A stretch of 12,519 nucleotides of DNA. Source: an uncultured Hippea sp. (GTDB taxonomy: Bacteria > Campylobacterota_A > Desulfurellia > JAADFJ01). The stretch is taken from the NCBI GenBank assembly GCA_913009315.1, contig CAJVZA010000059.1:1-12519 (forward strand). The letters are read 5' to 3'. Both the position numbers and the translations under genes were made by a program. Below, piece by piece: positions 1 to 1,583 of the stretch (the stretch's first letter is position 1; every line of letters starts with the position of its first letter). Below the pieces are notes generated by a model. That model was given only the letters and a program-made list of their open reading frames with translations. It did not search any database and was not told where the DNA came from.

Positions 1-113
1 CATCGTAAGCATTTTCCCCCTCCGTCATTGCGAGCGAAGCGAAGCAATCTCACCACAGGCAGGATGCCTATGATACACTGAGACTGCCGCGGCCTACGGC
101 CTCGCAGTGACAG
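1..113. repeat. Extragenic palindromic repeat, copy 1 (complete unit)
   Basis: Bases 1-52 are repeated exactly at 151-202. Within this copy, gtcattgcgag (24-34) can pair with ctcgcagtgac (101-111), and gcaatctca (44-52) can pair with tgagactgc (79-87), each with one wobble. The whole unit can therefore fold as one long imperfect hairpin. Bases 55-71 form a smaller nested hairpin (acaggca/tgcct). No reading frame is supported. The window begins inside the direct repeat, so its true left edge is not visible. Confidence 0.8.
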
Positions 114-150
114 AAGGAAAAGGTCATTGCCTTGGATATTTTCTCTCTGT

Positions 151-236
151 CATCGTAAGCATTTTCCCCCTCCGTCATTGCGAGCGAAGCGAAGCAATCT
201 CAGTTTCTTCAGTGTATCACAGGCATCCTGCCTGTG
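151..236. repeat. Extragenic palindromic repeat, copy 2 (rearranged)
   Basis: Bases 151-202 are a perfect 52-bp copy of 1-52. The adjoining 28 bp at 209-236 are the reverse complement of 54-81 with one mismatch, so the second half of the unit is inverted relative to copy 1. Bases 219-235 (acaggca-tcc-tgcctgt) make a perfect 7-bp hairpin with a 3-nt loop. The closing arm of copy 1 (101-111) has no counterpart here. This is a typical mosaic of short dispersed intergenic repeats. Two copies 150 bp apart do not make a CRISPR array. Confidence 0.8.
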
Positions 237-283
237 TCTGACGTAGACAGAAATGCTCAGGACTTATGTCTTCAGTCATAAAT

Positions 284-311
284 TTGCCAAAGTACCACTT
301 TATGTTATAGT
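284..311 (+). promoter_or_regulatory. Sigma-70-like promoter, possibly giving a leaderless mRNA
   Basis: A -35 box TTGCCA (284-289) and a -10 box TATAGT (306-311) are separated by 16 bp, and each differs from consensus by one base. The usual start point, 7 nt past the -10 box, is base 318, the A of the ATG of the following gene. No Shine-Dalgarno sequence lies before that ATG, which fits a leaderless transcript. The hexamers are seen; the start point is inferred. Confidence 0.55.
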
Positions 312-317
312 TTAAGT

Positions 318-1583
318 ATGCCGTTTTATAAAGCCCTCGAAGAGCTGTATAATCAGGAGAAAATCGCCAAAAGAGTATATCATTATGAGATAAAAAAAGT
401 CGAAGATAAAGATTTGGCAATTTTACTCAGGTTTATCTCCAAAACAGAACAGCTGCATTCAGATATGCTCAGAGAACTTTTAGCTTCTGCAGGTATCGAG
501 CCCGAACCTGATACTCAACGAACTAATGATGCAGTCAGATTGGTATCAACATTGCTTAACGATAAAGATATACTCCGGTTTAACCAGATTCTTGAAGCTC
601 AGGCAGCAATAAGCTACCGAAAATATGCAAATATTGCTCCGGATGAAAAGTCAAAAAAGATTTTACTTCAGATAGCAGAGGACGAGAAATACCATGAAAA
701 TCGCTTTTCTGTTATGCTTGCTGCCATCAAAAATCGCGAGGACAAAGAAGGCGATCCGTTGTATGTTTTTGAGAAAACGGTCGATGAAGGAAAAAAACGT
801 CTTTCCAGATCAGCGCTTGAGCTGCTTTTTTCGGGAATAATAGGCGGAATAAGTGTAACGCTCGGAGCGCTTGCTTCCGCTGCGGCATCAGGCGGAATAG
901 CAAATCAACAAATCAGTTTAATAGTAGCATCGGTTATTCTTCCACTCGGGTTTTTCATTTTAAAACTGACAAACACCGATCTTTTTACGGCAAATTTTTT
1001 AATTCCGATTACCCCTATTTTAGAACGTGACGGAGAAATTTCCAAATTACTAAGATTATGGACAATAACATATATCGGTAATTTTCTTGGTGTTGCGATA
1101 ATTCTGGCACTTATAGCGATCGGAGGAATCGCTTCCGTTGGGATTTTCGCAAAAGCACATTTTATCGAGCTTGCAGACTACAAAATGCATCGTTCCATCA
1201 TAGAAACATTTATCAGTGCGATATTTGCAGGCATGCTTATGACATTGATGACATGGCTGGTTTTGGCAGTAAAAGACAGAGTGGCAAAACTGATAGCAAT
1301 CTGGATAATTATCTTTATGATAGGCATTGGCTCGCTGACACATGTGGTGCTTTCTTCAGCTGAAGTTTTTATAGGAGCGATAGCCGGAGCACCATTTAAT
1401 ATGATAGATTGGGTTATAAAACTCGGTATTCCGGGAACAATAGGAAATATAATTGGAGGGACGATCTTTATAGCTACTCTCTATTATCTGCATATTCTGC
1501 ACAGCAGGAGAGATCTTACTGATTACAGAAGGCACAAAAATGCCGTGCTGTATGAAGCCATAAGAAAACGTATAAAACTTTAG
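318..1583 (+). CDS. Ferritin-like domain fused to FNT (formate/nitrite transporter, YfdC-like) membrane channel
   Basis: The 421-residue protein has two parts. Residues 1-140 look like a rubrerythrin/ferritin-like four-helix bundle: E44-x-x-H47 and E123-x-x-H126 are the two Glu-x-x-His pairs of a di-iron site, with Glu14 (or Glu9) and Glu93 as likely remaining ligands. Residues 165-395 are a six-helix membrane domain of the FNT family. It has the LF-containing break (TDLFTAN, 220-226), the second break with the pore histidine (THVVLSSAEV, His342) and the GTIGNIIGG motif at 373-381. FNT proteins are pentameric channels for small monovalent anions such as formate and nitrite; the YfdC subgroup has no firm substrate. 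The known analogue of this design is MbfA, a ferritin-like domain on a VIT1 iron exporter, but here the membrane half is FNT. The ATG at 318 lacks a ribosome binding site. The gene stands alone, so coupling of iron, redox or peroxide sensing to anion flux is inference. Confidence 0.8.
   Translation: MPFYKALEELYNQEKIAKRVYHYEIKKVEDKDLAILLRFISKTEQLHSDMLRELLASAGIEPEPDTQRTNDAVRLVSTLLNDKDILRFNQILEAQAAISYRKYANIAPDEKSKKILLQIAEDEKYHENRFSVMLAAIKNREDKEGDPLYVFEKTVDEGKKRLSRSALELLFSGIIGGISVTLGALASAAASGGIANQQISLIVASVILPLGFFILKLTNTDLFTANFLIPITPILERDGEISKLLRLWTITYIGNFLGVAIILALIAIGGIASVGIFAKAHFIELADYKMHRSIIETFISAIFAGMLMTLMTWLVLAVKDRVAKLIAIWIIIFMIGIGSLTHVVLSSAEVFIGAIAGAPFNMIDWVIKLGIPGTIGNIIGGTIFIATLYYLHILHSRRDLTDYRRHKNAVLYEAIRKRIKL

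Follow-up and report, generated by a model that had tools for sequence, protein, structure and literature searches.

A ferritin-like, predicted di-iron domain fused to a YfdC-type FNT channel in an uncultured Hippea sp. and in a second bacterial phylum

The fusion gene and its two domains

The window (the whole 12,519-nucleotide stretch analyzed, from contig CAJVZA010000059.1 of an uncultured Hippea sp.) contains a gene encoding a four-helix domain followed by a membrane channel domain. Its main features are as follows:

318..1583, + strand: fusion gene, predicted ferritin-like di-iron domain plus YfdC-type FNT channel (421 aa, ATG start, single open frame)
318..755, + strand: ferritin-like (rubrerythrin/bacterioferritin-like) four-helix domain, residues 1-146 (Pfam, PDB profile, model of the domain)
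765..1490, + strand: FNT channel domain, residues 150-391 (PF01226, 4.2e-53; PDB FNT 6vqq, 1.3e-20)
765..812, + strand: putative FNT N-terminal amphipathic (gating) helix, residues 150-165 (start of the FNT Pfam match; role by analogy with FocA, PMC11841067)
1491..1580, + strand: residues 392-421, a basic C-terminal tail predicted to be cytoplasmic, with a conserved R-hydrophobic-[RK]-L at its end (fusion alignment)

A preliminary description of this DNA had proposed a ferritin-like/FNT fusion, and separate domain searches of the two halves bore this out. In a whole-protein Pfam scan, Rubrerythrin (PF02915) matched residues 84-146 with an E-value of 1.9e-9; searched alone, the N-terminal half scored 39 bits against this family (cutoff 22.8), and residues 1-146 gave weaker matches to Ferritin_2, COQ7 and DUF2383. 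A profile built from the N-terminal halves of eight fusions matched bacterioferritins in the PDB (9viw, 2.2e-14; 9qq4, 8.8e-10; 1nf4, 4.5e-8), as well as encapsulated ferritins and sulerythrin. When modelled alone, the N-terminal domain formed four main helices and a short linker helix (pLDDT 82.6). Foldseek searches with this model returned a list composed mostly of bacterioferritins, but with E-values of at least 0.067 and TM-scores of about 0.47, and the Z values obtained with VIA (7-8.7) were in the range expected of helical bundles. Since these fold matches lie within the helical-bundle background, the ferritin-like assignment is carried by the sequence profile and not by the model. A full-length AlphaFold model computed from two sequences was unusable (pLDDT 41.6) and was discarded.

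The membrane half (residues 150-391) matched the FNT family (Form_Nir_trans, PF01226) with 180.6 bits (cutoff 34.6), while the NCBIfam fnt subfamily model matched at 4.8e-29, under its cutoff for a typical member. The only solved structures matching this half were FNTs: 6vqq, LCIA (6e-17) and FocA (8e-9). Assignment to FNT rather than VIT1/CCC1 had been set beforehand as a test of the fusion, and no Pfam match to VIT1/CCC1 was detected in the protein at E ≤ 10. At the level of sequence, the N-terminal half likewise withstood the second test set there, that of a ferritin-like character. The FNT hallmarks read from the translation in the preliminary description are all present, namely the LFT break (residues 222-224), the pore His342 and the GNIIGG motif (376-381). 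Alignment to solved FNTs suggests that this half forms a homopentamer with six TM helices per subunit and broken TM2 and TM5. We have very high confidence in this architecture; the combination of a ferritin-like, predicted di-iron domain with an FNT channel is real, conserved and, among the genomes searched, rare.

Within the N-terminal domain, the following predicted di-iron ligands, each invariant in eight fusions, were recognized:

357..359, + strand: E14, helix 1
447..458, + strand: E44-x-x-H47, helix 2
594..596, + strand: E93, helix 3
684..695, + strand: E123-x-x-H126, helix 4

The two Glu-x-x-His pairs noticed at the outset are those of helices 2 and 4. Together with E14 and E93 they compose the canonical E / ExxH / E / ExxH set, all six residues of which are invariant in the eight full-length fusions of two phyla, at 38-80% protein identity; Y21 and Y100 are likewise invariant. 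The ligand set suggests that the N-terminal domain binds iron. Rubrerythrins and bacterioferritins share the four-helix di-iron bundle and the same order of ligands. The fusion differs from them in the absence of a rubredoxin domain and in its attachment to a membrane channel; being attached in this way, its ferritin-like domain would not be able to form a 24-mer cage.

Distribution, conservation and genomic context

Of three genomes from the window's genus, two contain the fusion (congener locus L001/L003, 80% identity), as do eight of the nine genomes of another phylum, that of G045, at 38-43% identity (38-42% for the full-length proteins) to the protein of the window. The ninth genome, which lacks it, is 71% complete, and in G065, also of the second phylum, the gene is cut off by the end of its contig. 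These ten are the genomes with the fusion among G000-G543; the other FNT-bearing genomes have the channel alone. In this survey, which covered bacteria, the fusion was not found in any of the roughly 530 other genomes searched, and there was none among 136 from the phylum of G034. None of the 56 FNT matches on plasmids covered 80% of the query, and the single FNT match on viral contigs lacked a ferritin-like domain. An assembly artefact was ruled out, as the fusion lies on independent contigs of independent genomes. A literature search, which fell short of most subscription journals and left domain databases unchecked, yielded no report joining FNT with a rubrerythrin or ferritin-like domain; within the searched literature we found no description of the fusion.

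Comparison with the congener gave dN/dS values (NG86) of about 0.10 for residues 1-145 and 0.05 for residues 150-421, which are rough because dS is saturated. Both halves look to be under purifying selection. The N-terminal half has evolved faster than the FNT half, both across the phyla (31-35% vs 41-46% identity) and relative to the congener (dN of 0.21 vs 0.09). Such a difference would be expected if the fusion were a loose one, with the ferritin-like domain serving in assembly or as an iron store tethered to the membrane, and the channel working independently of it. We regard this as very unlikely, given that the fusion has been retained in nearly all sampled genomes of one phylum with its six ligands intact in the full-length copies, and that the FNT half contains additional invariant residues specific to the fusions (see below).

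The neighborhoods of the fusion gene are diverse. In the window it is followed by a convergent EamA transporter gene, after which come a c-type cytochrome gene, narGHJI and a gene for a NarK-like MFS transporter. The congener shares the convergent EamA gene, beyond which lie DUF218-like and macro-domain-like ORFs, and has a radical-SAM-like ORF upstream (read by eye). In the second phylum the neighbors, also read by eye, vary by genome (NAD kinase-like, radical-SAM-like/TilS-like, PEPCK-like, GAPDH-like, macro-domain/P-II-like), and no nar, fdh or nir genes were seen beside the fusion. A link to nitrate reductase was therefore rejected: since the nar neighborhood is not conserved, either in the congener beyond EamA or in the second phylum, its presence is incidental, and the nitrate reductase operon nearby, to which attention had first been drawn, carries no weight as a functional clue. 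The lack of a conserved operon partner fits a general homeostatic role. A scan of the regions upstream of seven fusion genes for the Fur consensus, the one motif scanned, revealed no more Fur boxes than in shuffled sequences.

Some minor features were also recorded. Positions 26-51 and 176-201 of the window contain a REP-like 26-mer, CATTGCGAGCGAAGCGAAGCAATCTC, present in 25 copies in the genome at ≤1 mismatch (0 for the reversed control). Elsewhere in the same genome (L015 1264-1573; G000:C63), between flagellin-like and TRAP-transporter-like genes, lies a truncated duplicate of window positions 76-390 (87% identical DNA), which covers the stretch upstream of the fusion gene together with its first ~26 codons. 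In G045 (L004, around 2640), an apparent one-base deletion in helix 2 splits the fusion gene and leaves the missing N-terminal piece in another frame; this may be a sequencing error or a real pseudogene.

The channel half and comparison with MbfA

In a tree of 41 FNT domains, the clade comprising E. coli YfdC (TC 1.A.16.4.1) and the fusions splits from the FocA/NirC types with 100/100 support. Within it the fusions form one group, weakly supported (80/24), which is compatible with a single origin but does not show it. As judged from the phylogeny, the FNT half is a member of the orphan YfdC-type clade and not a FocA or NirC. The following positions of the pore region were compared:

963..965, + strand: K216, at the position of FocA V83, beside the pore loop and eight residues ahead of the LFT threonine (invariant in fusions; found in none of the 31 other FNTs compared)
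981..989, + strand: omega-loop LFT, with T224 = FocA T91 (alignment, FNT comparison)
1182..1184, + strand: K289 = FocA K156, a vestibule lysine (kept in fusions and in 24/24 classic FNTs, absent from 7/7 other YfdC-clade proteins)
1341..1343, + strand: pore His342 = FocA H209 (fusion alignment)
1443..1460, + strand: GNIIGG motif, TM6 (translation)

In FocA numbering, the fusions have Phe79, Gly172, Ile/Met202 and Glu216, as is YfdC-like, and do not share the FocA-type pore residues F202, N172 and N254. When set against the YfdC feature list of PMC5525234, they show Gly172, an aromatic residue at 79 and a non-Phe residue at 202. Omega-loop Glu92, which shows at least 90% conservation among YfdC proteins, is found in the second-phylum fusions (LFTEN, YfdC-type) and is replaced by Ala in the window and its congener (LFTAN). 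All fusions have N, Q or H instead of a basic residue at 86 and Leu instead of an aromatic one at 254, and for this reason they are placed in the YfdC-type clade and not considered typical members. They differ from YfdC also in keeping K156, in having Lys at 83 and Arg at 159, and in bearing a folded ferritin-like domain where YfdC proteins have an N-terminal segment averaging 42-55 residues (PMC5525234). Formate or nitrite, suggested earlier as substrates, found no support, as the tree and the pore residues place the FNT half away from the formate/nitrite channels.

Arg at FocA position 159 (R292), like Lys at 83, is essentially confined to the fusions, and the equivalents of T91 and H209, which constitute the FNT proton relay, are invariant in them. 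The FNT half carries a net positive charge, compared with -9 for E. coli YfdC. The retained K289, the fusion-specific K216 and R292 and the positive charge favor an anion or weak acid over Fe2+ as substrate.

These features bear on an unlikely reading in which the fusion is an MbfA-like iron exporter on another scaffold: at the cytoplasmic face the ferritin-like domain would load and oxidize Fe(II), and export of the iron would fall to the FNT half. Against it stand the lysines at FocA positions 83 and 156, the positive charge, the intact His/Thr relay and the loss of Glu92 in the window and congener. Acidic residues at both the Glu92 and Glu216 positions of the second-phylum fusions would suit a cation, as would a computational study, cited in a review (PMC10789880), which suggests neutral or cationic substrates for YfdC-alpha.

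MbfA (membrane-bound ferritin, an iron exporter; NF045676) is itself a close parallel in layout, since it combines an N-terminal four-helix ferritin-like domain, bearing the full di-iron ligand set, with a membrane transport domain. A ferritin-like domain joined to a transporter is thus a known kind of protein; the difference lies in the membrane partner, which is VIT1 in MbfA and FNT (4e-53), with no VIT1 match, in the fusion. The preliminary description had drawn exactly this distinction, which stands. VIT1 is a dimer, whereas the FNT fusion is expected to be a pentamer. NF045676 matched the N-terminal half of the fusion weakly (7.5e-5).

The cytoplasmic N-terminal ferritin-like domain of MbfA is needed for iron transport (PMC7762939), which favors iron export by the fusion as well. 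Among the proteins fetched, the nearest non-fusion ferritin-like domain was that of a ferritin-VIT1 protein (L061, 37 bits), with those of L014 and L062 also scoring, a modest resemblance. Moreover, none of the three genomes from the window's genus yielded a VIT1 match. In several second-phylum genomes, however, a ferritin-VIT1 protein coexists with the fusion and provides another candidate for iron export there. To our knowledge, no FNT has been shown to pass a metal cation. The broader notion of an FNT converted to iron handling, whose ferritin-like domain either feeds Fe(II) into the YfdC-type pore or fills with iron through it, is in our view unlikely; if true, the protein would be a counterpart of MbfA that arose by convergence on an unrelated scaffold. 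It would then also be the first FNT to have a metal as its substrate, and would hint at what the orphan YfdC channels carry.

Ferritin-VIT1 (MbfA-like) proteins were encountered in other lineages (L014 847-1902, L061 1039-2157, L062 1468-2709). That of L062 comes from the window's own class; a review places MbfA in alphaproteobacteria.

Proposed role of the di-iron domain

In FNT channels, gating and substrate supply act through the cytosolic N-terminal helix, the point of fusion here. PMC5572259 gives the N-termini (and C-termini) of FNTs as cytoplasmic, and by this topology the ferritin-like domain would lie on the cytoplasmic side. The N-terminal helix of FocA is the docking site of PflB, a cytosolic enzyme that presumably gates the pore and delivers the anion, and removal of this helix disrupts formate translocation in vivo (PMC11841067). 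The FNT match of the fusion starts at residue 150, no more than about ten residues after ferritin helix 4 ends, which would place the di-iron domain where PflB acts on FocA. Both systems have a cytosolic partner at the FNT N-terminal helix; the partner of FocA is a glycyl-radical enzyme, and that of the fusion a covalently attached di-iron protein.

We tentatively favor the reading (probability roughly 0.4) that a di-iron module gates or feeds a YfdC-type channel for a small weak acid or anion. The protein would form a YfdC-type FNT pentamer bearing one ferritin-like domain per subunit on its cytoplasmic face, each fused to the N-terminal helix that gates the pores. This domain would most likely bind Fe(II) and react with O2 or peroxide, and either its state would control, or its chemistry would feed, passage of the weak acid or anion through the pore. 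Two observations count against this reading, namely the computational suggestion of neutral or cationic substrates for YfdC-alpha and the lack of an iron- or peroxide-responsive operator upstream in the Fur consensus scan. Our confidence in this mechanism is moderate to low, with both the gating and the substrate class being inferred. Gating by iron or peroxide state, as put forward at the outset, is a reasonable hypothesis.

A peroxide-handling unit, in which a rubrerythrin-type domain reduces or senses H2O2 and an aquaporin-like YfdC-type pore passes a neutral reactive species or the product, seems distinctly unlikely. Rubrerythrins are peroxidases and the ligand set agrees, and a neutral substrate is among those suggested for YfdC-alpha in the review (PMC10789880). 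However, unlike the separate full-length rubrerythrins of the same genomes, the fusion has no rubredoxin domain, it scores modestly against Pfam Rubrerythrin, and the PDB profile search ranked bacterioferritin higher.

YfdC represents a large FNT subfamily without a known substrate, and the di-iron fusion ties this type to iron or redox chemistry. The fusion offers a single polypeptide in which metal-state gating is directly testable through mutation of four or six residues.

Further relatives of the channel half were observed. A viral contig (IMG/VR; L060 3001-3768) encodes a YfdC-clade FNT without a ferritin-like domain, and the window protein is matched in its FNT half by the PHROG family phrog_12662 (function unknown; 3e-24). 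In L005, a YfdC-clade FNT gene (1567-2460) lies directly downstream of a beta-carbonic-anhydrase-like gene (883-1500), and a bicarbonate link is possible for this branch of the clade.
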